From positions 124,001 through 188,000 of the forward strand of contig NZ_JAGPXE010000005.1 in NCBI RefSeq assembly GCF_018070075.1: 64,000 nucleotides of DNA, in the 5' to 3' direction. This DNA is from Saccharopolyspora endophytica. GTDB taxonomy: Bacteria > Actinomycetota > Actinomycetes > Mycobacteriales > Pseudonocardiaceae. The position numbers and the translations under genes were made by a program. Within the stretch, counting starts at the first letter, position 1, and every line of letters begins with the position of its first letter. The notes beneath the pieces are model-generated. The model saw only the letters and a program-made list of their open reading frames with translations. It was not told where the DNA came from and ran no database searches. Of the stretch, positions 8,280 through 40,325 are shown piece by piece.

Positions 8280-8472
8280 GACGCCATCTTCGCAGCTGAC
8301 AAGCGCGGACGGCGTTGAGAGGGTCCTCACAAGCACCCCCCCGCGACCGGCGATTTCGGTGGCGATCAGCACCGGAGGTGGTGAAAAGCGGCCTCGCGCG
8401 TGGAACCATCGAAACGTCCGCGCGTCCCACCACCAGGGGCGTCGACGCACGCGGCAGGGGAGGGCAGCGGCA

Positions 8473-8916
8473 GTGCCGACCGACCACAGGTCTCAAGTGG
8501 AAGAGTTGATGGCCGACTACCGGCGGAGTCGGGAGCGGCTGGCCGACACCCGGCGCGACCTCGCCGCCGTCACCGCCACCGCGAGCAGCGAGGACGGCCG
8601 GGTGCGGGTCGTCGTCGGCCCGCAAGGCGCGCTGCGCGAACTGGAGATCGCCGACGACGCGACGCAGCGGATGCGTCCGGCGCAGCTCGCGGCCACGATC
8701 GTCCGGCTCAGCACCGAGGCCGCTCGCGCCGCCGCCGAACGCGCCGCGTCCGTGCTCTCCGACGTGCTGCCCGCAGGCACCGACCCGGAACTGCTGCTCG
8801 GGCCGCCCCCGGAACCGGTGTCGCGCAACGATTCGCGGCGGATCGACGATGATGCCGACGACGAGGACTTCTCGGACACCAGCTGGCTGCAGCAGGGCCC
8901 GACGGGACGGACGTGA
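8473..8916 (+). CDS. YbaB/EbfC-like protein heading an ESX toxin operon
   Basis: A 147-residue protein starting at GTG 8473. It has an N-terminal helix (SQVEELMADYRRSRERLADTR) and a short sheet GRVRVVVGPQGALRELEI, followed by a long Ala-rich helix, which is the YbaB/EbfC arrangement. The acidic tail (DDDADDEDFSD) is not part of that fold. In actinobacteria such YbaB-like proteins commonly stand first in operons encoding WXG100 proteins and large secreted toxins, where they may act in export rather than as nucleoid proteins. Its stop overlaps the next start (GTGA). Confidence 0.75.
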   Translation: MPTDHRSQVEELMADYRRSRERLADTRRDLAAVTATASSEDGRVRVVVGPQGALRELEIADDATQRMRPAQLAATIVRLSTEAARAAAERAASVLSDVLPAGTDPELLLGPPPEPVSRNDSRRIDDDADDEDFSDTSWLQQGPTGRT

Positions 8917-9239
8917 CCATGGGCGGTTTCCGCACCGACACCGAGCGGTTGGCGCAACGGGCAGGTGAGTTCGAGGACCTGGCCGGTCAGGCCCAACGCA
9001 TCGTCGACACCGTGCGGCAGGCCGTGGAATCCGCGGGCGCCTGCTGGGGCGACGACGAGTTCGGCGAGCGCTTCGCCGCAGCCCACGCACCCCGCTCCGG
9101 CGCCGCCCTGGCCGCTGCGGGCGAGTTACCCGGCGAACTGCGCGCGCTCGGCCAGAAGTTCGCCGACACCGCCCGGACCACGCGCCGAACCGACGCCGAC
9201 AACGCCGACGAACTCCGCCGGCTCACCGGAGAGGGGTGA
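8913..9239 (+). CDS. WXG100-like ESX protein
   Basis: A 108-residue helical hairpin protein. The turn region reads SAGACWGDDEFGERFAAAH, where CWGDDEFG replaces a classical W-x-G. The two flanking helices are of typical WXG100 length. The start is GTG 8913, overlapping the previous stop, or ATG 8919. It is coupled at its end to the TNT toxin gene (GTGA overlap). It is likely a secretion partner or targeting subunit for the large toxin that follows. Confidence 0.75.
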   Translation: MTMGGFRTDTERLAQRAGEFEDLAGQAQRIVDTVRQAVESAGACWGDDEFGERFAAAHAPRSGAALAAAGELPGELRALGQKFADTARTTRRTDADNADELRRLTGEG

Positions 9240-11239
9240 ACGGCGTGGGCATCGAACTCCCGCCGGAACTCCGCGACGTCGCCGCCCGCGCCGGAGCCCG
9301 CTGGCCGGCCGCCGACGAAGACCTCATGCGCGACTCCGCCACCGCCTGGCGCGAAGCCGCGACGTCCCTCGACGCGCTCACCCGCGACGCCGACACCGTC
9401 GCGCAAGGCGCCCTGAACTCCTTCGACGGCGAAGCCGCCCAGGCCGCGGGCCGGGAGTGGAACGGCTTCATCGCCGACGACGGACCGCTTCCCGCCACCG
9501 CGAAGCAGTGCCGGGCCAACGCTGATCGACTCGACCACGCGGCCGAGCAGATCAGCACCGCCAAGGTCGAGCTCGTGCGCGAACTCGTCTCGCTCGCCAA
9601 GCAGACCGACGCCGCCGAACAAGCCGCCGCGACCGGAAACCCGCAGGCCCTGGCCGGTCTCGACACCGCGCTCAGCGGCGCGGCCGCCAACGTCGCCCGC
9701 GTCCACGAGACGCTGTCCACCGCGCTCGACTCCGGCGTCCCGGCAGCGGCGGAGCAGACCTCCGGTGCTCTGGCGGACGTCGGCGCGGCAGCAGGCCATA
9801 CGCTGGAACCGGAATCCGCAGTGGACGATGCGGAACCCGGTGATGTCGGTGCTGTGATCGAAGAAGCGGAACGTGGCGTGGCGGAAACAGTCGGTGGTGC
9901 CCATGACACCGTCCGCGAAGCGGTTCCGGAAGGTGGGTTCGGCGCTCCCGCCGCTCCGCCCGCGCCGGGCTGGCAGCCCGGGATGGCGGAAGCCGGAACC
10001 GGACCGATCCCGGTGATCGGCTCCGGCGGTCACGCCGGGTGGCGTCCCGACGACGCGCCCAACACCGCACCCCAGGCCTCGCACGCGGCCTGGGCGTCCC
10101 CGCCCGGCCAGCAGCCGCAGGCACCGGCACCGGGATTCACGCCCCAGCCCCCGCCGCTGCAGCAGCAGGGCGGTTACGCCGTCGCCGGAGGACCCGCCGC
10201 CCCGCCGCCCCAGCAGGGCGTGGCCGCCGTGCGCCCACCGCAACCACCCCCGGTCCACCGGGCACCGATGGCCTTCGGGCAGGCCGGACCCGCACCGCAG
10301 CCGCCGGGCGGCCAGCCCCAGCACGTCCAGCACCAGCCCGCCTCACACCAGCAGGTCCAGCGCGGAGCACTGCGCCCGCTGCCGCCGCAAGCCCAGCCGC
10401 CGCAGTCCCCGGCCGCCCCGGAACCGCAGCAACGACCGCTGCGCCACGGCCCCCGCAACGCCGACGTGGTCGCCTTCGTGCTGCACCAGTTCCCGATCGG
10501 CTACATGCCGGTCGCCGCCGACCAGGCCAGCCGCCAGCTGCCGGTGCACGACGCGCCCGAGAACCGCGAAGGGCTGAACTTCCCGCCGCAGGACCACCCC
10601 CGCTCCGACCTGGTCGACGACACCGACGCCCTGCGCCGCGCCCAGAACACCGCGCTCTACGAAGAAGCCCGCCGCAACCGCGCCGAACCCCCGGAACCCG
10701 CCGAACCCCCGGAGGAACTGCTCGCCACCCACGAACCGCTCGGCGAGCTCAGCGAACTCGACTGGGAACGCCGCTACGAGATCCGCGACGGCGAGCACAC
10801 CCGGCACCGCTGGCCGCGAGCCGACGAGTTCCCGGAAGGCGGGTTCGAACCCGGTGAGGCCGTCGTGCTGGAACCGGACGCGGTCATCGACCTGTTCGGC
10901 ACCGGCGACGGACGGCTCTTCTGCGCCGCCGCAACGCCTTTCGCGCACCGCTCGCTGCCCCCAGCCCACGCCGAGCGGGACTACCGGCGCTACCGGCTGC
11001 TCCGGCCGCTCCCCGTCTGGCGGTCGGTGGCCGCGCCGTGGTTCGAGCAGCCCGGCCGCGGAGTCTGCTACCGCACCACCTACCCGGCCGCCGACCTCGT
11101 CGGACTCGGATACCTGGTGGAACTGACCAAGTCACGGGAGCTGTCGGAGGCCTCCACGCTGCGCCTGGTGCTCACCGGCACCACCGACGGCGAACCGCCC
11201 CCGGACCAGCACGATCGGCAACAGGAGAGCCCGCGATGA
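9236..11239 (+). CDS. ESX-type secreted toxin with C-terminal TNT (NAD+ glycohydrolase) domain
   Basis: A 667-residue polymorphic toxin. Residues ~1-190 are helical with a WXG-like region (AGREWNGFIADDGPLP), residues ~230-420 are a Pro/Gln/Ala-rich linker, and the last ~140 residues match the tuberculosis necrotizing toxin family: GRLFCAAATPFAHRSLPP, a YRRYRLLRPLPVW strand, and APWFEQPGRGVCY. TNT of CpnT hydrolyses NAD+/NADP+. The Gln expected after the G-x-G turn (recalled as Q822 in CpnT) reads Cys here, so activity may be altered. The gene is translationally coupled to the WXG100-like gene before it and the candidate immunity gene after it. Confidence 0.85.
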   Translation: MNGVGIELPPELRDVAARAGARWPAADEDLMRDSATAWREAATSLDALTRDADTVAQGALNSFDGEAAQAAGREWNGFIADDGPLPATAKQCRANADRLDHAAEQISTAKVELVRELVSLAKQTDAAEQAAATGNPQALAGLDTALSGAAANVARVHETLSTALDSGVPAAAEQTSGALADVGAAAGHTLEPESAVDDAEPGDVGAVIEEAERGVAETVGGAHDTVREAVPEGGFGAPAAPPAPGWQPGMAEAGTGPIPVIGSGGHAGWRPDDAPNTAPQASHAAWASPPGQQPQAPAPGFTPQPPPLQQQGGYAVAGGPAAPPPQQGVAAVRPPQPPPVHRAPMAFGQAGPAPQPPGGQPQHVQHQPASHQQVQRGALRPLPPQAQPPQSPAAPEPQQRPLRHGPRNADVVAFVLHQFPIGYMPVAADQASRQLPVHDAPENREGLNFPPQDHPRSDLVDDTDALRRAQNTALYEEARRNRAEPPEPAEPPEELLATHEPLGELSELDWERRYEIRDGEHTRHRWPRADEFPEGGFEPGEAVVLEPDAVIDLFGTGDGRLFCAAATPFAHRSLPPAHAERDYRRYRLLRPLPVWRSVAAPWFEQPGRGVCYRTTYPAADLVGLGYLVELTKSRELSEASTLRLVLTGTTDGEPPPDQHDRQQESPR

Positions 11240-31131: not shown

Positions 31132-32166
31132 CTACGCCGCGGCGCGCAGGTAGGCGGCATGGGTCCGGCTCGCGCAGTGCTCCCAGCTGAAGCTCTTCGC
31201 GTGCGCGCGACCGGCTTCGGCATCCGGGGGAGCGGCCAGCGCGCGGCGCAACGCCTCGCGCAGCGCGGCCGGGTCCTCGGCCGGTGCGAAGACCGCGTGC
31301 GCACCGGCGACCTCGCGCAGCGCGGGAAGGTCCGAGCACACCACGGGCACGCCGCACGCCAGCGCCTCCAGCACCGGCAACCCGAAGCCCTCGTCGCGCG
31401 ACGGCAGCACCAGCGCGCTCGCCCCGGCCACCAGGCCGCGCAACTCCTCGTCGGAGAGATAGCCGGTGCGGATCACCCCGTCGACCTCGCCCGCCGCCCC
31501 CGGGCCCGCGATGACCAGCGGCGGGAGGTCCGGAGCGAGCGCCGGCCGCAGCACGTCGAGGCCCTTGCGCGGGCCCTCCGCGCCGACGAACAGCAGGTAC
31601 TCGGGAGGAATCCGATCACCTGAGGCCGGTGCCGCCGAGAACCACTCGGGATCGACCCCCAAGGGCGTGACCGCGAGCTTCTCCGGCGAGACGTCCAGGC
31701 GCTCCGCGACCCGGCCGGCCATCGCCGCCGTCGGCGTGCACACCACGCGGGCCCGCTGCGCCGAAAGCCGCACCAGCGCGGGCAGATCCTCGTCGGCCAG
31801 CGAAGGGTCGTCCAGGAACGCCAGGTCGTGCACCGTCACCACACCCGCCGCGCGCACCGACGGGGGCAGCACGAAGTTCGTCCCGTGCACCACGTCGACG
31901 GCCCCGGACAGCAGCTCCACCGGTGGGAAACGCCCACCCCGCCACAACATCCGCAGCGCACGAGCCGGAATCGGCGGCCCCACCACGTGCGTTCCGGCCG
32001 GCGCCTCGGTGCGCAACCGGCGCCACCCCCGGGTGCTGAAGCCGATCAACCGGACGTCCACATCGGACGCCAGCGCCGCCACCAGCGACGCCGTGTAGCG
32101 GCCGATGCCGGTGCGCGGCCCCAGCAGCGGTGTGGCGTCCAGCAGAACCCGCAGGTCAGCGGCCAC
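31132..32166 (-). CDS. GT4-family glycosyltransferase
   Basis: A 344-residue GT-B enzyme (GTG 32166, overlapping the upstream gene by 11 nt). The N-terminal acceptor domain starts LRVLLDATPLLGPRTGIGRY, and the donor domain has LLFVGAEGPRKGLDVL and SRDEGFGLPVLEALACGVPV with the E-x7-E motif of retaining GT4 enzymes. It closely resembles the two rightward GT4 proteins at 40382 and 41626 in plan. Donor is probably a nucleotide sugar such as GDP-mannose, which cannot be fixed from sequence. It is the last gene of the leftward island operon and converges on rmlD. Confidence 0.88.
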   Translation of the reverse strand: MAADLRVLLDATPLLGPRTGIGRYTASLVAALASDVDVRLIGFSTRGWRRLRTEAPAGTHVVGPPIPARALRMLWRGGRFPPVELLSGAVDVVHGTNFVLPPSVRAAGVVTVHDLAFLDDPSLADEDLPALVRLSAQRARVVCTPTAAMAGRVAERLDVSPEKLAVTPLGVDPEWFSAAPASGDRIPPEYLLFVGAEGPRKGLDVLRPALAPDLPPLVIAGPGAAGEVDGVIRTGYLSDEELRGLVAGASALVLPSRDEGFGLPVLEALACGVPVVCSDLPALREVAGAHAVFAPAEDPAALREALRRALAAPPDAEAGRAHAKSFSWEHCASRTHAAYLRAAA

Positions 32167-34672
32167 GGAGCCGTTCCCCGGCGATGCGCCGCAACCGGCC
32201 GGTCGCGCGCTTGGCGACCTCGGCGGGACCACCGGCGTCGAGGTACTCCCGCAGCAGCGACAGATCCCGGCGCACCGTCTCCACCCGTCCCGGCTGCGCG
32301 GTGCGCACCAGCGGCGCGGCAGCGGTGAGCCGGTCGGCGGCCGGACGCGGATCGCGGCAGAACGACGTCAGCGGCGAGAGCACCGCCTCCCAGGTGAAGC
32401 GCTCCCGCACCGGCTCGATCCGGCGACGGCACTCGGCGGCGAACTCCGCGTCGTAGAGGACCTTCTCCAGCGCGTCGGCGAGCGCCTCGGGCTCCTCGGC
32501 GGGCACCACGACGCCGATGCCCTCGCTGCGCACCAGGTCCGCGAACGAATCACCGTCGGTGGTGATCACCGGCAGCCCCGACCACAGGTAGTCCAGCACC
32601 CTCGTGCGGAACGCGAAGGTCGTCTCCACGTGCTCGAAGTGCGTGGTGACACCGCAATCGGCGTCCAGCAGGAAGTTCTGCCGCTCCTGGTAGGGAACCC
32701 AGGTCTCGTTGAAGAACACGAACTTGTCGGTCAGGCCGAGCCGCTGCGACAGCGCCCGGGTCTGCCCGGCCATGCCCATCTCCGGAACGTCCGGGTTCGG
32801 GTGCTTCATGCCCAGGAAGAACAACCGCACGTCGCTCCGCCGCTGCGCCAGCAGGTCGATCGCGCGCAGCAGGGTCAGCGGGTCGAACCAGCTGTAGACG
32901 CCACCCGCCCACAGCACGACCTTGTCGTCGGCCGAGATGCCCGGCCTGGTGCCCTTGATCGCGGGCGCGGTGCGACGCGGAGCCACCGACGGCAACCCGA
33001 ACGGAACCACCGACAGCAGCGACCGCACGGTCGGGTCGTTGTCGTAGAGCCCCGGCGTCAACCGGCCCAGCGAGGCCAGATGCCCGAGCCAGAAGTGCCG
33101 CTGGCGCTCCGAGGCGCACAGGAAGAAGTCGCCGCGCTCCAGTTGGGTGTTGAGCACCTTGGTGACACCGGCGAGGTCCTTCGCGCGGCGCTCGTCGTCG
33201 GAATCGCGGCCCTGCTCCAGCAGTTCCAGGTGCATCGGGTCGTAGACGTCGCAGACCACGATCTTGGTGGAGTCCACGCGCTTGAGCGCGGGCACCATCT
33301 CCAGGACGTGCCCCTGCAGCACCACGATGTCGGCCCACTCGACGTGCTCGCCCAGCTCGCGCGGCTTGGCGGCCAGCACCTCGAACTCCGACTCCGGCGG
33401 ATCCACCCGGGCGTTGACGCTGACCAGCCGGACCCGGTGCTCGGCGGCCAGCACCTCGGACATGTGCCAGGCGCGGATCGCCGGACCGGCCATCCGCTCG
33501 GTGACCGCGTCGCCGGTGATCACCACGATCTTGCGCGGCCGGCCGAACACCTCGTCCAGCTCGAACGCCTCCACCAGCGCCTCGTGCGCGGCCAGGTAGC
33601 GGGGGAGCGGGTAGGCGGGCTCCATCGCCTTGCGCATCAGCGGCAGCAGGTCGGCGTCGGTGCGCACCCGCGCCCGCTGCTCCTGCTCGCGGGAGAGCTT
33701 CAGCGACGGAAGCAGCTCCACGAACTGGTCGATGGCCAGCATCCCCGCCAGCGCGGAGCGGTCGATCGGCACCGGGGAGTCGTCCTCGGTCTCGCCGCGG
33801 CGCGTGATCTCCAGCTGCGTCGGGTCGATCTCGCCGCGCGCCGTGGCCCGCCGCACCGCCAGCGCCATCGCCGCCGGCAGCGCCTTGGCGAGGGTCTCGT
33901 CGGAGACGTTCTTGTACAGCGCGGCCAGCGCGTTGCGCTCCAGCAGGTAGTGCTCGCGGGCGGAGGACACCTCGGCCATCGACGCGTGGTGGCGGTGGAA
34001 GGTCAGCGACCTCGGCTCGTAGCGGACCCGCCAGCCGCGCAGGTTCAGCCGCCAGCCCAGGTCCACGTCCTCGTAGAACATGAAGAAGCGCTCGTCGAAA
34101 CCGTCCAGCGCCGCGAACAGCTCGGCCCGCACGAACAGCGCCGAGCCGGTGCCGAACAGCACGTCGCGGGGCGCGTCGTGCGAACCGTCGTCGAGCTCAC
34201 CGGCGTGCCGCTTGTAGCCCATGCCGAACCAGGTGAGGCCTCCGTCGACGAAGTCGACGCGCTCGCCGTCCCAGTCCAGGACCTTGCCGGCCACCGCGCC
34301 CACGGTCGGCTCCGCCCGCAGCACCTCCACGGCCGCCCGCGCCCAGCTGCGGTCCGGTCGGGCGTCGTTGTTGAGGAACGCCAGCACCTGCCCGGTCGCC
34401 TCGCGCGCGGCCAGGTTGCAGCCACCGGCGAAACCGGTGTTGCTCGCCGACTCGATCAACCGCACCTCGGGCACGGCCTCGCGGATGCGCTGCGCGGAGC
34501 CGTCACCGGAGGCGTTGTCGACGCACAGCACCTCCAGCTTGTCGGCCGGGTAGTCCAGCTCGTCGCGCACCGCGCGCAGGCAGGTGATGGTGTCGTCCGC
34601 GCCGCGGTAGTTCACGACGATCACGGAGACGACGGGAAGGTTCGCTTCGACCACGCCCCAAGCCTGCACCAT
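32156..34672 (-). CDS. two-domain glycosyltransferase (GT2 fused to GT4)
   Basis: 838 residues from ATG 34672; a GTG at 34654 is an alternative. The N-terminal ~290 residues are a GT2 (GT-A) enzyme with VVSVIVVNYRGADDT, VDNASGDGSAQ, AFLNNDARPDRSW (metal-binding Asp region) and DERFFMFYEDVDLGWR. The WbbL-like EDVDLG motif suggests a rhamnosyltransferase-like fold. A helical bridge follows, and then a GT4-type GT-B half (VVLWAGGVYSWFDPLTLL, VLDYLWSGLPVITTDGDS). Such fusions add two consecutive sugars in O-antigen-like pathways. It is the fifth gene of the leftward operon. Donor and acceptor are unknown. Confidence 0.88.
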   Translation of the reverse strand: MVQAWGVVEANLPVVSVIVVNYRGADDTITCLRAVRDELDYPADKLEVLCVDNASGDGSAQRIREAVPEVRLIESASNTGFAGGCNLAAREATGQVLAFLNNDARPDRSWARAAVEVLRAEPTVGAVAGKVLDWDGERVDFVDGGLTWFGMGYKRHAGELDDGSHDAPRDVLFGTGSALFVRAELFAALDGFDERFFMFYEDVDLGWRLNLRGWRVRYEPRSLTFHRHHASMAEVSSAREHYLLERNALAALYKNVSDETLAKALPAAMALAVRRATARGEIDPTQLEITRRGETEDDSPVPIDRSALAGMLAIDQFVELLPSLKLSREQEQRARVRTDADLLPLMRKAMEPAYPLPRYLAAHEALVEAFELDEVFGRPRKIVVITGDAVTERMAGPAIRAWHMSEVLAAEHRVRLVSVNARVDPPESEFEVLAAKPRELGEHVEWADIVVLQGHVLEMVPALKRVDSTKIVVCDVYDPMHLELLEQGRDSDDERRAKDLAGVTKVLNTQLERGDFFLCASERQRHFWLGHLASLGRLTPGLYDNDPTVRSLLSVVPFGLPSVAPRRTAPAIKGTRPGISADDKVVLWAGGVYSWFDPLTLLRAIDLLAQRRSDVRLFFLGMKHPNPDVPEMGMAGQTRALSQRLGLTDKFVFFNETWVPYQERQNFLLDADCGVTTHFEHVETTFAFRTRVLDYLWSGLPVITTDGDSFADLVRSEGIGVVVPAEEPEALADALEKVLYDAEFAAECRRRIEPVRERFTWEAVLSPLTSFCRDPRPAADRLTAAAPLVRTAQPGRVETVRRDLSLLREYLDAGGPAEVAKRATGRLRRIAGERLRGR

Positions 34673-34748
34673 CGCGAGTCCGGGCCGCCCAGGTGTTCGG
34701 TCAATTCGGTCGCCATGACCTGCCTCGGCGGCCGTTCGCGCCTCGCCG

Positions 34749-34820
34749 AGGGGCGGTTCTGGTCCGAACTGTCCGGGCATATCGGACATCGATCAACGGT
34801 TCGGGCCAAGAACCGCCCCT
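34749..34820. repeat. nested inverted repeats between the fusion GT and FAD genes
   Basis: Outer arms AGGGGCGGTTCTGGTCCGAAC (34749-34769, shown with a one-base gap) pair with 34799-34820. Inside lies TGTCCG (34770-34775) with CGGACA (34783-34788). It sits directly after the FAD gene stop and 77 nt before the glycosyltransferase start on the minus strand. It could attenuate or terminate transcription within the operon, or be a binding site. Confidence 0.6.
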
Positions 34821-34824
34821 GCCC

Positions 34825-36027
34825 TCACCTCGGTCCCCGGCTGAGCAGCTCCCGGAGCCTCGGGGTGTACAGCGCCGTGATGTCGGCGGCGCCGGCGAAG
34901 GCGTCGAAGTAGATCGACGTCAGCTCCTCGTCCTGCTGGATCGCGCGCAGCAGCGCCAGCCGCTGCTCGTTCGGCGGCGTCATCCGCGCCACCGACAGCG
35001 TCGCCGCGTACCCCGGGGCCAAGGTGCTGTCGCGCTCGGCCGCGAACCCCCGCAACGCCGCGTCCAGCCTCGTCGGCGAATCGAGGAATCCGCTGATGTG
35101 CCTGGCCAGCGACTCGGCCTGGGTGAACGCGTCGCTGATCCCGCGTGCGGTGATCGAGTCCTTGTGGTGACCGGCATCGCCCACCAGCACCCACCCCGGA
35201 CCGGCCGCCTCGCGGAAGAAGTTCTGCTGATCACCCGACCCCCGCAACCGCTCCACCTGCTCCCCGCCCTGCAAGCGCTCGCGCAGCTCAGGTGCGGTCT
35301 CCCGGACGCGGTCGAGGTGGGCTCGCTGCGCGTCGGCGCGCACCGAGCGGAACCGCGACTGCGGGAAGTAGGTCAGCACCAGCGTCGCGTGCCCGTGCGT
35401 GGGCGTGGCCGCCACCCAACTGCCCGGCGACTCGTAGATCTCCAGATCCGCGGGCACACCCGTCCAGTACGAGTAGTAGGCGCAGGTCAACCGCTCGTCC
35501 CAGGTCGTGAACCCCGCATTGGCGTGCGCGGCCACCGACGAGCGCATCCCGTCCGCGCCGATCACCAGCGACGCGCGCTCGGTGAACTCCACGCCCCGGT
35601 GCTCACCGCGCACCCCCACCACCCGGCCGCTGTCGTCCCGCAGCAACCCGGTGACCCGGCACTTCTCCCGCAACTCCGCGCCCGCCGCCACGGCCGACCG
35701 CGCCAGCAGCTCGTCCAGCACGAAGCGGCGCGGCGCGTACCCCGCGCGCTGGCCGGCCACGCCCCGCCCGCACCCGGCCAGCCGTGCGTCGGCGACCTGG
35801 TAGCGGGCGTGCCGCAGCGGCGGACAGCCGGTGGCGCGCAACTCGTCCAACAACCCCCACCGCGCCAGCGCGGCCACGCCCGGCTGGTGGATGACGTGGG
35901 TGGACACGGTGTCCGAGGGGAACGTCCCGCGCTCCAGCAGCAGCACCCGGTGACCCGCGCGGGCCAACAGCATTGCGGTGGGCGAACCCGCGCAGCGGGC
36001 ACCCACGACGATCGCGTCGAACATCAT
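34825..36027 (-). CDS. FAD-dependent monooxygenase/oxidoreductase
   Basis: A 400-residue flavoprotein of the UbiH/geranylgeranyl-reductase-like superfamily. IVVGARCAGSPTAMLLARAG is the ADP-binding Rossmann loop with an unusual ARCAGS instead of GxGPAG. LVIGADGMRSSVA is the DG motif and VLVGDAGHHKDSITARGISD the FAD ribityl-binding GD motif. The tryptophan halogenase W-x-W-x-I-P motif is absent, so hydroxylation or dehydrogenation is more likely than halogenation. It lies 4 nt after the adenylation gene stop, so it probably tailors the product of that enzyme or of the KS-ACP protein. Confidence 0.85.
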   Translation of the reverse strand: MMFDAIVVGARCAGSPTAMLLARAGHRVLLLERGTFPSDTVSTHVIHQPGVAALARWGLLDELRATGCPPLRHARYQVADARLAGCGRGVAGQRAGYAPRRFVLDELLARSAVAAGAELREKCRVTGLLRDDSGRVVGVRGEHRGVEFTERASLVIGADGMRSSVAAHANAGFTTWDERLTCAYYSYWTGVPADLEIYESPGSWVAATPTHGHATLVLTYFPQSRFRSVRADAQRAHLDRVRETAPELRERLQGGEQVERLRGSGDQQNFFREAAGPGWVLVGDAGHHKDSITARGISDAFTQAESLARHISGFLDSPTRLDAALRGFAAERDSTLAPGYAATLSVARMTPPNEQRLALLRAIQQDEELTSIYFDAFAGAADITALYTPRLRELLSRGPR

Positions 36028-36031
36028 CGCC

Positions 36032-37474
36032 TCACAGCTCTAGTTCGGAACGCAGCGCCCGGCGGTCGAGCTTGCCGTTGGCGTTGAGCGGAAGTCGGTC
36101 CAGCACCGTGATCCGGCGCGGCAGCATGTACGACGGCAGCCGGTCCCGCAGACCCGCCTGCAGCGCGTCGGGAACGCAGTCGCCCCCGACGGCCGCCGCC
36201 AACTCCGGTTCGCCCTCGGTCGGCACCGCCAGCACGATCGCGTCCCTCACCCCCGGCAGCGCGCGCAACGCGGCCTCGATCTCGCCGAGCTCGATGCGAT
36301 GCCCGCGCACCTTCACCTGCTGATCGGTGCGCCCCAGGTGCAGCAGCACACCGTCGGCGACCGTCACCAGATCCCCGGTCCGGTACCAGCCGCCCGGCGC
36401 GAAACGTCCCGCGTCGTCGGCGGGATCGAGGTAACCCGCGAACCGCTGAGGCCCGCGCACGCACAGCTCGCCGCGCGCCGCCGGCCTGCCGGTGGGATCC
36501 AGCACCCGGAACTCCAGCGAGGGGAAGCACTCGCCGATCGGAGCGACCCCGTTCGGCGTGCTCGGCCACTCCGACACCTCGCGCGGCAACCGGTGCCCGG
36601 TGCAGGCGATCGTCAGCTCCGTCGGCCCGTAGAGCACCTCGACATCGCTGTTCGGCGCCGCGCGCTTCCAGCTCCGCAGCGCCTCCATCGGCACGGCCTC
36701 ACCGCCGAAGATGCTGCACCGCAACGTCGGCATCGCCCCCGGACGCAGCGTGCCCAGCCGTTCCGCGAAGGTGATCAGCGACGGCACCGAGAACCAGTGC
36801 GTCAACCGCAGCGCGTTGACCGCGCGCACCGGTGACAGCAACGCTCCCGCGCGCGGCACCACCAGCGTCCCGCCCTGGCCGAGGGTGACGAACATGTCGT
36901 GCACCGAACCGTCGAAGGTCAGCTCGAAGTTCCCCGAAACCCGGCTGCCCGGCCCGATCCCGTACCGCGCGGCGACCTCCGTCAGGTACGCGTCGAGGTT
37001 GCCGTGCGAGATCGGAACCGCCTTCGGCGTCCCCGTCGACCCCGACGTGCAGATGACGTAGGCGATGTCGTCGGGACCGATGGGCACCTCCCGCGCCCGC
37101 CCGAAGGGCTCGTCCGTCCCGGCGCGCAGCACGGGAACATTCCACTCACCCCGAGCCCCGGACTCCTCGGTGAGCAGCAGCTCGACACCGGTCTGGGCCA
37201 CCAGTTCGCGGATGCGCTCCGGCGGGTGCTGCGGGTTCAAGGGCACCACCGTCGCACCGGCGCGCAGCACCGCCAGGTAGCCGGCGCAGGCGAGCACCGA
37301 GCGGTTCGCCAGCAACCCGACCCGCTGCGGGGCACCGGCGCCGTGCAGGCGCGCCGCCAGCCGCTCGACCATTTCGCGCAGCTCCGCGTACGTCAGGCTC
37401 GCCCCGTCGACCTCCAGCGCCGCCTCGTCGGGGAACTGGGCGGCGGCGCGCTCGAACCACGTGAGGACGTTCAT
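36032..37474 (-). CDS. stand-alone NRPS-type adenylation enzyme
   Basis: A 480-residue AMP-binding enzyme with all core motifs: CTSGSTGTPK (A3, ~142-151), FELTFDGSVHDMF (A4), LYGPTELTI (A5), GELCVRG (A6), YRTGDL (A7), GRTDQQVKVRGHRIELGEIE (A8) and LPLNANGKLDRR with the catalytic Lys ~468 (A10). The A4 FD points to an amino-acid-type substrate; the pocket residues I can place (D, G, H) match no code I know. It has no carrier domain of its own. Its ATG overlaps the stop of the KS-ACP gene (ATGA, with GGAGG before), suggesting it loads that ACP in trans. Confidence 0.9.
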   Translation of the reverse strand: MNVLTWFERAAAQFPDEAALEVDGASLTYAELREMVERLAARLHGAGAPQRVGLLANRSVLACAGYLAVLRAGATVVPLNPQHPPERIRELVAQTGVELLLTEESGARGEWNVPVLRAGTDEPFGRAREVPIGPDDIAYVICTSGSTGTPKAVPISHGNLDAYLTEVAARYGIGPGSRVSGNFELTFDGSVHDMFVTLGQGGTLVVPRAGALLSPVRAVNALRLTHWFSVPSLITFAERLGTLRPGAMPTLRCSIFGGEAVPMEALRSWKRAAPNSDVEVLYGPTELTIACTGHRLPREVSEWPSTPNGVAPIGECFPSLEFRVLDPTGRPAARGELCVRGPQRFAGYLDPADDAGRFAPGGWYRTGDLVTVADGVLLHLGRTDQQVKVRGHRIELGEIEAALRALPGVRDAIVLAVPTEGEPELAAAVGGDCVPDALQAGLRDRLPSYMLPRRITVLDRLPLNANGKLDRRALRSELEL

Positions 37475-39348
37475 CGCCGAACCTCCGTCAGATCTCTCGC
37501 CCAGCGGCACAGGTCCCGCACGGTGCGCAGCGCCGCCAGCTCCTCCGGATCGACCTCGCGCCCGGTGCGCTGCTGCACCTCCACCAGCAGTTGCAGCTTC
37601 GCCAGCGAATCGATGCCGATGTCGGCCAGCGCGGAATCCTGGTCGAACGCGGTGCGCGCGTGCTTGCCCAGCAACCACTCCGCGGGATCATCACCGGCCG
37701 GCTCGTCGCCCGGCCAGAAGCGGCGCGTCTGCCATGGGTACGTCGGCAGCGGCACGTGACGTCCAGGCCCGAACAGCCCGTCCCGGTCCACCGATTCGGA
37801 ACCGAGGAACCGGTCCAGCTCCGGCGTGCTGTCGGTCGTCAGCGACTCGACGAGCTCCCGGTGCGTCGCACCGATCGCCACCGCGCGGTGCTCGAAGCGG
37901 GTGCGGCGCAACGCCGCGCTGCGGCAGATGTCGCGCACCGGGAACTCCGCGCCCGAACCCGACAGGTGCTCGACGTAGGCGCGGGTCAGATCCGCCAGCG
38001 CCTCCGGAGTGCGCGCGGACAGCACCAGCGGCCAGCACGTCCCGTCGTCCGGCGTGCGCGGCTCGTGCTCGGCGCTGCGCAGCACCACGTGCGCGTTGAG
38101 CGCCGACGACCCCTGCGCGGACACCCCCGCGATCGCGCGCGAGGGGATGTCGGTGAGCACCTGCGGGATCGACAGGCCCGACCAATCCACGTCGGTGCGC
38201 GGAAGCCCGGCGTGCAGGCTCGCGGGCACCTCGCCGTTCTCCAGGCACAACGCGGCCTTGATCAGCCCGACCAGACCGCCTGCGGCTTCGGCGTGCCCGA
38301 GGTTGGACTTCGCCGAGCCGACCAGCAGCGGCCGGTCCGGTGATCGGGAGGTTCCCATGAACCGGCCCAGCGCGGTCAGCTCCAGCGGATCCAGCAGCGG
38401 GGAACCGGACCCGTGCGCCTCCACGAAGTCCACCTCCGAAGGATCCACGCGCGCGTCCCGGTAGGCCCAGCGCAGCACGTCCAGCTGCCCGTCCAGCGAC
38501 GGGTTGAGCACCGAGTCGCTGCTGCGACCGTCGTTGCCCACCGCGCTGCCGGCGATCACCGCGCGCACCCGATCCCCGTCGGCCAGCGCCGCTTCCCACG
38601 GCTTGAGCACCACCACCGCGATCGCGTCGGAAGGCGCGTGACCGTCGGCGTCGGCGCTGCCGAACCGGCTGCGACCGTCCGCCGACATGGCCCCGGCGTG
38701 CGACATCATCACGGCCTCGTCGGGCCGCAGCGGCAGGTTCACCCCCGCGACCACCGCCGCCGGGATCTCCCCGGACCGCAGGCTCTGCACCGCCTGGTGC
38801 ACCGCTGTCAACGCCGACGAGCACGCGGTGTCGACCACGACGCTCGGACCGCGCAGGTCGAAGAAGTGGGACAGCCTCGCCGGCAGCAGTGAGCGAACGT
38901 TTCCCAGCTGCGTCGCCGTGGCGGAGGAAAGGCCCTGCTGGAGGGCGGATTCGAGGAAATCGGCCCGGGAGTTGCCCACGAACACGCCGGTTCGGGATCC
39001 GCGCAACCGCTCCGGGACGATTCCGGCGTCCTCGAACGCCTCCCACGCGCACATCAGCAGCAGCCGCTGCTGAGGATCGAGCGCGGTGGCCTCGGCCGCG
39101 GACATGCCGAAGAAGTCGGCGTCGAAATCGGCTATTCCGTCGACGAACCCGGCCCGGCAACCGGCGAGACCGCCGGGCCCGGACGAACGCAGGGCCGCCG
39201 CGTCGTAGCGGTCAGCGGGGGTGCGCGCGGTCGCGTCGACGCCGCCGCGCAAAAGCTCCCACAGCCCGTCGGGATCGGTCGCCCCGGGAAGCCGGCAGGA
39301 CATCCCCACGATGGCGATCGAACGCTGGTGAACTCCAGTCGTAGTCAT
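37471..39348 (-). CDS. AT-less polyketide synthase module: KS, remnant AT linkers, ACP
   Basis: 625 residues. The KS domain (about 8-425) has an intact Cys-His-His triad: C176 in DTACSSAL, H312 in EAHGSGS (usually EAHGTGT) and H352 in NLGHAEAAGG. A KS-AT linker follows (LVLSARTPEALADLTRAYVE ... RRTRFEHRAV, ~440-490). The post-AT linker motif HVPLPTYPWQTRRFW (~531-545) comes only ~40 residues later, so the ~300-residue acyltransferase is missing. An ACP ends the protein with phosphopantetheine Ser ~581 in IGIDSL. Extender units must come in trans, or the ACP is charged by the coupled adenylation enzyme. Confidence 0.9.
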   Translation of the reverse strand: MTTTGVHQRSIAIVGMSCRLPGATDPDGLWELLRGGVDATARTPADRYDAAALRSSGPGGLAGCRAGFVDGIADFDADFFGMSAAEATALDPQQRLLLMCAWEAFEDAGIVPERLRGSRTGVFVGNSRADFLESALQQGLSSATATQLGNVRSLLPARLSHFFDLRGPSVVVDTACSSALTAVHQAVQSLRSGEIPAAVVAGVNLPLRPDEAVMMSHAGAMSADGRSRFGSADADGHAPSDAIAVVVLKPWEAALADGDRVRAVIAGSAVGNDGRSSDSVLNPSLDGQLDVLRWAYRDARVDPSEVDFVEAHGSGSPLLDPLELTALGRFMGTSRSPDRPLLVGSAKSNLGHAEAAGGLVGLIKAALCLENGEVPASLHAGLPRTDVDWSGLSIPQVLTDIPSRAIAGVSAQGSSALNAHVVLRSAEHEPRTPDDGTCWPLVLSARTPEALADLTRAYVEHLSGSGAEFPVRDICRSAALRRTRFEHRAVAIGATHRELVESLTTDSTPELDRFLGSESVDRDGLFGPGRHVPLPTYPWQTRRFWPGDEPAGDDPAEWLLGKHARTAFDQDSALADIGIDSLAKLQLLVEVQQRTGREVDPEELAALRTVRDLCRWARDLTEVRR

Positions 39349-39404: not shown

Positions 39405-40325
39405 TCACCGGCCCGCCCAGGCCTCCCACACCTCGCGGCGGGAAACCCGCGCCATCCGGCCGATCCGGCGACGGGCGCGCAGCGTCGCGGGCAGCAGCGA
39501 GGAGACCTTCACCAACACCCGCAGCCGCAGACCGGCCCGCAGGTTCGGCGGGCGATGGGGCAGATCGCGCCACGGCAGGAGCAGCGTGAGGGCCGCGAAC
39601 CTCGCCACTTCGCGGACCGCGACCCCTGCGGGCGCGCAGCGCAGCAGGGTGAGCAGGCGGTTCCCCTCGTTCCAGCGGTGGAACAGCGCCGAACCGGGCC
39701 GGGTGCTGGCCCCGTGCAGGTGCGTGGCGGTCGCCTCCGTGCCCACCACGTCGAAACCCGCCAGCCGCAGCCGCCACGCGGTGTCGGTGTCCTCGTAGTA
39801 GCAGAAGAAGTCGGCCGGAACCCCTCCCGCCTCGCGCAGCACGTCGGTGCGCAGCAACGCCGCCCCGCCGCAGAACCCGAAGACCGCGCCGGTCCCGGTG
39901 GCGTCCGCGCCGTGCCCGTCAGCGGTCAGCCGCACCCCCGTCGACTGCACACCGCCGTCCGGCGTCCGCAGCACGGACGTGGCCGCCGCGGCCGTCGGGG
40001 TGGCAGAAAGGTTCCCCTCCACCACCTCCAGCCAGTCCGCGGACGGGGCGGCGTCGTCGTTGAGCCAGGCGACGAAGGGCGTGTCCACCTCGGGCAGCGC
40101 GGCGGCCAGGCCGCCCGCGTAGCCGACGTTGCGGGGCAGCCGCAGCACCTCGATCTCGGGACGGGCGGCGAGCAGTTCGGCCGTGCCGTCGTCGGAGGCG
40201 TTGTCCACCACCAGCGTCCGGTGCGGACGCGACTGCGCGTCCAGCGCTTCCAGGCAGGCGTCGATGTGGGCCCGGCCGCGCCACGTGATCACGATGACCG
40301 TGGTGCGCACCCCGTCTGATGTCAC
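39405..40325 (-). CDS. GT2-family glycosyltransferase
   Basis: A 306-residue GT-A enzyme, first gene of the leftward island operon. TTVIVITWRGRAHIDACLEA, VVDNASDDGTAELLA, FVAWLNDDAAPSADW (metal-binding Asp region) and FFCYYEDTDTAWRLRLAG (catalytic ED motif) mark the rhamnosyl-/WbbL-like GT2 group. The C-terminal ~90 residues are basic and amphipathic, probably membrane-associated. Residues EGNLSAT are encoded by a copy of the dispersed GAAAGGTTCCCCTCC motif (~40001-40020). It is divergent from the GT4 gene at 40382, 56 nt away. Confidence 0.88.
   Translation of the reverse strand: MTSDGVRTTVIVITWRGRAHIDACLEALDAQSRPHRTLVVDNASDDGTAELLAARPEIEVLRLPRNVGYAGGLAAALPEVDTPFVAWLNDDAAPSADWLEVVEGNLSATPTAAAATSVLRTPDGGVQSTGVRLTADGHGADATGTGAVFGFCGGAALLRTDVLREAGGVPADFFCYYEDTDTAWRLRLAGFDVVGTEATATHLHGASTRPGSALFHRWNEGNRLLTLLRCAPAGVAVREVARFAALTLLLPWRDLPHRPPNLRAGLRLRVLVKVSSLLPATLRARRRIGRMARVSRREVWEAWAGR

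Follow-up and report, generated by a model that had tools for sequence, protein, structure and literature searches.

Several described systems come close to the arrangement reported here. In the prodigiosin MBC and pyrrole pathways (PigI/PigA/PigH; Bmp1-4), a stand-alone adenylation (A) enzyme works with a carrier, a flavoenzyme and a ketosynthase (KS) joined to an acyl carrier protein (ACP). VinM and IdnL7, from macrolactam pathways, are likewise stand-alone A enzymes serving an ACP-type carrier, and polyketide synthases (PKSs) of the trans-acyltransferase (trans-AT) type couple KS and ACP domains without an AT. Conservons, for which the name actinobacterial G-protein system (AGPS) is now also in use, are sets of adjacent genes for a kinase, a roadblock protein, a DUF742 protein and a GTPase. 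The present study concerns three consecutive genes, hereafter the trio, encoding an AT-less KS-ACP protein, a carrier-less A enzyme and a flavin adenine dinucleotide (FAD) enzyme. They lie in a stretch of 64,000 nucleotides from Saccharopolyspora endophytica (contig NZ_JAGPXE010000005.1, positions 124,001 to 188,000), referred to as the window. An initial sequence-only reading of this DNA knew of no described pathway with exactly this trio in a glycosyltransferase operon. As far as the results listed by open-access full-text searches go, no description of the trio, of its product or of a characterized cluster turned up, subscription papers being mostly outside this coverage.

The trio is a genuine unit: the three genes are carried together from genome to genome, purifying selection acts on them in the window's clade, and the active-site residues of their products are conserved. 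We interpret it, tentatively and with slightly less than even confidence, as a horizontally mobile three-gene cassette encoding a minimal assembly line of the hybrid peptide-polyketide type that lacks an AT. It would be a very small, complete-looking and widespread peptide-polyketide cassette, whose chemistry is testable with three proteins.

An orthologue of the KS-ACP protein was found in 34 genomes, 10 from Pseudonocardiaceae and 24 from Streptomyces. The neighborhood survey that had been proposed from the sequence revealed the KS-ACP, A and FAD genes in the same order in 32 of these 34 genomes; in the other two (G840 and G1055), the KS and A genes are present and a contig end then cuts the set. 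The A gene overlaps the KS-ACP gene by 4 nucleotides in 27 of the 30 loci besides the window, with start codons as picked by script. Within the window's clade, twelve comparisons drawn from five genomes gave ratios of nonsynonymous to synonymous substitution rates (dN/dS) of 0.14-0.32. The KS-ACP protein is 95% identical to a protein in S. aridisoli. Large searches, which scored the best 3-4 candidates per PKS-rich genome and could miss a few, detected KS-ACP proteins at E 1e-140 in 15 of 297 Pseudonocardiaceae genomes, 10 of which have the trio. They also detected it in 2 of 394 genomes of the class sample (S. endophytica itself and G470) and in 24 of 392 Streptomyces genomes, plus one linear Streptomyces plasmid. 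The five remaining Pseudonocardiaceae (G005, G006, G078, G113 and G247) encode a lone KS of ~50% identity, beside which there was no FAD match and no A match except a 34% identical enzyme in G078.

The KS-ACP gene (37471..39348, minus strand) encodes 625 residues, which Pfam and alignment divide into a KS (residues ~9-379), a KS-AT linker (~392-503), a post-AT linker (~526-547) and an ACP (~555-620). The Pfam matches are the N- and C-terminal KS domains, KAsynt_C_assoc, CurL-like_PKS_C (residues 441-503) and PP-binding (residues 568-616), with no match to the AT family at E 0.001. At the junction where a cis-AT module would be expected to hold its AT (residues ~505-545, from alignment and domain ends; 37714..37836, minus strand), only the post-AT linker is found, with the YPWQTRRFW linker PLPTYPWQTRRFW at residues 533-545; in the alignment this junction is shorter than in the Streptomyces orthologues. 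The protein therefore lacks the AT that a cis-AT type I PKS module has between KS and ACP, and the description of AT-flanking linkers followed directly by an ACP was accurate. A degenerate AT fold, considered at the outset as a possible flaw in this description, gave no hit in the profile search and is ruled out by length, because the KS-AT linker ends ~50 residues ahead of the ACP, which leaves no space for the Pfam AT model of 319 positions, ~300 residues being needed. A structure model of the protein had a mean predicted local distance difference test (pLDDT) score of 43.6, too low to inform.

Conservation of the active sites was followed in an alignment of 31 of the 32 complete sets (L031 was left out). 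The KS has the Cys-His-His residues of a functional enzyme, as first read from the sequence: Cys176 and His312 are each kept in 31/31 orthologues and His352 in 30/31, with Tyr in L165. The ACP carries its phosphopantetheine serine, Ser581, in a DSL motif; this residue is kept in 30/31 orthologues, with a gap in the broken L108. Thirty of the 31 orthologues measure 624-693 residues, too short for an AT, L108 being again the exception. In this locus (8462-10371, genome G012), the KS-ACP gene is split over two frames, by a frameshift or a sequencing error.

The second gene (36032..37474, minus strand), delimited by Pfam, open reading frame, profile comparisons and alignment, encodes a stand-alone A enzyme of 480 residues. 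Its full frame spans 36032-37678, and its start ATG at 37474 lies within the stop of the KS-ACP gene (ATGA overlap). Pfam recognizes AMP-binding and AMP-binding_C domains and no carrier domain. The third gene (34825..36027, minus strand), starting 4 nucleotides downstream of the A gene, encodes a 400-residue FAD enzyme (Pfam FAD_binding_3) with a fold of the halogenase/p-hydroxybenzoate hydroxylase (PHBH) kind. Coordinates and Pfam thus agree with the gene arrangement initially described.

To place the KS, a tree was computed by a quick method from 187 sequences, 12 short and 3 duplicate rows having been removed from 202, and an AT was scored as present by a GHSxGE-like motif. All 13 trio KSs cluster together (support 100), and their sister is a group of AT-less KS-only proteins (99). 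The smallest starred fork that encloses the two groups (96) also takes in the AT-bearing L020 and the long-branched, AT-less L036 and L040, and the wider forks are mostly AT-bearing and weakly resolved. Because the sister group also lacks the AT, the tree places the AT loss before the trio. The sequence-only reading had proposed loss of the AT from a cis-AT module: the loss stands, as an event that predates the trio, and descent from a cis-AT ancestor is likely, short of proof by the KS tree. The trio KSs do not group with the AT-less modular KSs L060 and L091, which we take to be trans-AT, in a tree holding few trans-AT references; a trans-AT origin is not favored by this tree, in which the AT-less L036 and L040 nevertheless lie near the trio on long branches. 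Like trans-AT PKSs, the trio combines KS and ACP without an AT, with the AT-flanking linkers retained, but its KS branches apart from L060 and L091, its cassette holds no AT gene, and it comprises a single module. The S. endophytica assembly (7.17 Mb, 34 contigs) contains one stand-alone AT, near a KS match.

Different starter and oxidative genes surround the KS-only sisters. Pfam detects a KASIII and a flavoenzyme at the G005 locus, where a small ACP was recognized by eye; an A enzyme, a PhyH protein and a P450 accompany the KS of G078, and a KASIII and a PrnB-like protein that of G113. AT-less KS-only relatives were also noticed on a second Streptomyces plasmid (L190, NZ_CP109179.1, 9567-15052) and in L143. 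Both adjoin a PrnB-like protein, and the plasmid locus, a further small cluster, has genes for a flavoenzyme and a carrier as well. Two inverted copies of one gene, transposase-like by eye, enclose the KS-only relative of G078 (L145, 1472-2251 and 16033-16812).

Regarding the A enzyme, the solved structures nearest to its specificity (A4-A5) region are VinM 8K4R (86 bits), IdnL7 6AKD (81 bits) and 4OXI, which we take to be AlmE. Over the whole profile, the top chains besides the two-domain LgrA were 8XJZ, 8K4R and 6AKD, and DltA matched too. The enzyme scored 316.2 bits against TIGR01733, just below the cut-off of 317.4. It has the A-motifs of the adenylation enzymes of nonribosomal peptide synthetases (NRPSs), and the positions of Asp235 and Lys517 are each invariant (31/31). 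These comparisons support its assignment to the kind of enzyme by which amino acids are activated for transfer to carriers of the ACP type, in keeping with the role first suggested. The specificity residues, read by motif, are D G H S I G L I A K in the window. The most frequent code, DGHSVGLISK (11/31), has H, S, L and I in common with 4OXI, and the window code additionally A.

Flavin-dependent halogenases are marked by the motifs WxWxIP and FxPxxSxG. Both are missing from the six orthologues of the FAD enzyme that were inspected, in which the corresponding positions, placed by eye, read WVAATP or variants and HHKDSITARG. A flavin-dependent halogenase of the kind of Bmp2, Mpy16, PltA and ChlB4 was therefore rejected. 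The trio has in common with the prodigiosin and pyrrole pathways a stand-alone A enzyme, a carrier, a flavoenzyme and a KS with ACP; however, its flavoenzyme has the halogenase/PHBH fold and not that of an acyl-CoA dehydrogenase, it lacks the halogenase motifs, and only three genes are involved.

The assembly line that we favor would proceed as follows. The A enzyme, with its invariant Asp235 and Lys517 positions, would activate an L-alpha-amino acid and, acting in trans, load it onto the ACP of the KS-ACP protein. From there it would pass as an aminoacyl group to the KS cysteine, and the vacated ACP would receive malonyl through a housekeeping malonyl transacylase, presumably the one stand-alone AT of the genome. 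Condensation by the KS would yield a gamma-amino-beta-keto thioester, and the FAD enzyme may oxidize the carrier-bound intermediate. Finally, the amine of the intermediate could attack the thioester and release a tetramic-acid-like or related small ring; such ring closure would explain why a thioesterase is not needed. Conservation and selection are observed, and the chemistry of every step is inferred.

Several points weigh against this scheme. A single carrier must take both an amino acid and malonyl, which is awkward. According to the accessible part of one report, VinM forms an amide on aminoacyl-ACP and rejects holo-ACP (PMC11284099), so the loading step could differ, and the KS might condense nothing at all. 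No malonyl transferase, thioesterase or phosphopantetheinyl transferase (PPTase) is encoded among the three cassette genes, and enzymes encoded nearby in some Pseudonocardiaceae (an alpha/beta hydrolase in L107, with a P450 further off) could participate. Lastly, the trio has no known product.

The setting of the trio in Streptomyces brings in a second interpretation. In 22 Streptomyces genomes and one plasmid, a divergent GAF gene precedes the KS-ACP, A and FAD genes, which are followed by kinase, roadblock, DUF742 and GTPase genes, the adjacent set that constitutes a conservon; among the trio loci, this was seen in Streptomyces only. GAF, roadblock and DUF742 genes occur in 23/23 loci and the kinase was detected in 22/23 (none in L165, a weak match in L156). 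The GTPase was found in 20/23, the fetched stretches of L147, L162 and L163 ending before it. Pfam recognizes a NIT sensor domain in the kinase, as seen on L030 and on the L189 and L195 kinases. Upstream of the GAF gene, the DNA aligns over more than 800 nucleotides in 7 of 276 locus pairs, one of which is the same genome fetched twice. Downstream, none of 66 pairs did so, a weak test given that 12 loci had more than 300 nucleotides, mostly in short pieces. Among 392 Streptomyces genomes, the GAF gene was present in 26: all 24 trio genomes, G845, whose KS is cut by a contig end, and G990. In G990 (L195, 7567-15722), an acyl-CoA-dehydrogenase-like gene (8966-10723) replaces the trio between the GAF gene and the NIT-kinase conservon, as if the GAF/NIT-kinase pair bracketed an exchangeable metabolic cargo.

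In the available parts of the two conservon reports, the GAF protein CvnF8 of Streptomyces coelicolor binds and stimulates the kinase CvnA8, cvn8 represses a neighboring lanthipeptide cluster, and conservon GAF proteins act on their own kinases and are suggested as sensors (PMC13343842, PMC8510531). One of them, as far as its accessible text goes, reports GAF accessories with kinases devoid of a NIT domain, and its authors consider that conservon NIT domains may sense ligands besides nitrate, which in their words is still to be tested (PMC13343842). The Streptomyces loci resemble these conservons, cvn8 included, in that the four conservon genes and that of a GAF protein flank the trio. They differ in embedding a biosynthetic trio and in the GAF neighbor accompanying a NIT kinase, unlike the pairing with NIT-less kinases in that text; the likeness of the GAF protein to CvnF8 is that of the GAF domain alone (Pfam). 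No conservon stands beside the window's trio.

The trio of the Streptomyces island is probably regulated by its conservon. Beyond regulation, it could make a small signal that the conservon senses, or whose synthesis the conservon switches, with synthase, GAF protein and NIT kinase/GTPase inherited as one unit; this is possible, if unlikely. The constant gene order among mostly unrelated upstream flanks, the occurrence of the GAF gene in all 24 Streptomyces trio genomes and the suggested sensor role of conservon GAF proteins (PMC13343842 and PMC8510531, in their available parts) speak for such a unit. Saccharopolyspora, on this view, has the synthase alone, which five species carry within a glycan operon. 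Nevertheless, the arrangement in G990 indicates that the sensor pair can exist without the trio, and the ten trio sets of Pseudonocardiaceae, the window's and those of nine loci, gave no match to GAF or conservon genes at E 1e-8 in the stretch searched. Moreover, conservons regulate adjoining clusters too, as cvn8 does with the lanthipeptide cluster, so the link to the trio may be regulation alone. The fuller form of this idea, a portable signal-and-receptor unit whose small, amino-acid-derived product is the ligand of its own Streptomyces conservon (the GAF protein and/or the NIT-domain kinase), with the synthase on its own taken up into a cell-surface operon within one clade of Saccharopolyspora, seems rather unlikely. 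If true, it would be, to our knowledge, the first case of a conservon that brings along the synthase of its ligand. The position of the trio within the Streptomyces island offers a concrete candidate for the input or the target of conservons.

A third interpretation, quite improbable, follows from the proximity of the A4-A5 region to VinM and IdnL7: the A enzyme would form an amide between its amino acid and an amine that the ACP already carries, leaving the KS merely to move or hold the acyl chain. In the part of the report available, IdnL7 accepts Gly, L-Ala and L-Ser, and its pocket is shaped by C217, A285 and T318 (PMC11253843). Matched by motif, the C217 and A285 positions are each G in 31/31 trio enzymes, and the T318 position is S or A in 26/31, T in 4 and Y in 1, so that the VinM/IdnL7-type residues are not retained; in place of a neighboring Phe of IdnL7, 27 of the 31 have His and 4 have Tyr. 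The pocket should be roomier than that of IdnL7. The trio also differs from the VinM and IdnL7 systems in the fusion of its carrier to a KS and in the lack of VinN, VinL or VinK partners within the cassette, which has no second A enzyme to place a first amino acid on the ACP.

In the window, the trio is embedded in a glycosyltransferase (GT) operon. The insertion site is bordered by a GT2 gene (39405..40325) and by a fused GT2-GT4 gene (32156..34789; 877 residues), and a GT4 gene (31132..32232) belongs to the same operon; all three were assigned by Pfam, lie on the minus strand and are part of the host operon, not of the cassette. On that strand, 56 nucleotides separate the trio from the gene at 39405 and 35 from the first possible start at 34789, spacings that make co-transcription likely. 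The fused gene occurs in 21 of 22 Saccharopolyspora genomes, and the trio separates it from the GT2 gene in five (G000, G001, G007, G009 and G016); no trio genes lie at this junction in 16 of the 21 species with the GT locus. Where the junction is free of the trio, the distance between the BLAST matches of the two GT genes is 22-329 nucleotides in 14 genomes, 782 in G005 and 2380 in G020, and insertions may have occurred here repeatedly. The five trio genomes and the trio-less G011 form one clade (100/100) in a tree of four operon proteins. Conversely, the trio lies outside the GT operon in four Saccharopolyspora (G002, G012, G014 and G020) and in G288. No relative of the window's GT operon was found at E 1e-6 in 28 trio loci (5 Pseudonocardiaceae and 23 Streptomyces; 12.7-21.9 kb fetched), five of which gave a few matches to unrelated window proteins. 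As the operon exists without the trio and the trio is found elsewhere, the cassette entered an older operon, whose transcription it probably merely shares in Saccharopolyspora.

The glycan decoration put forward in the sequence-only reading, considered here in a form in which an aminoacyl or ketoacyl group made by the trio would be given to the product of the GT operon, as with DltA and D-Ala or AlmE and Gly on cell-surface polymers, draws on the likely co-transcription and on the A-enzyme matches to DltA and 4OXI, but it is very improbable given the 16 of 21 species and the 28 loci just described, the lack of a membrane O-acyltransferase in the cassette, the absence of any GT (Pfam) among 10 flanking proteins of the Pseudonocardiaceae loci L106, L107 and L142, and the FAD enzyme and KS that it leaves unexplained.

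Two further features of these surroundings were noted. At the GT2/GT2-GT4 junction, 2.4 kb of other DNA occupies the site in G020 (L184), which has its own trio elsewhere, and 0.8 kb in G005 (L188). The flanks of the Pseudonocardiaceae trio loci include the alpha/beta hydrolase and P450 of L107 and, in L142 (6218-9256, genome G288), a large gene for an AfsR-like regulator (BTAD, NB-ARC, TPR) that ends beside the trio and is read away from it.

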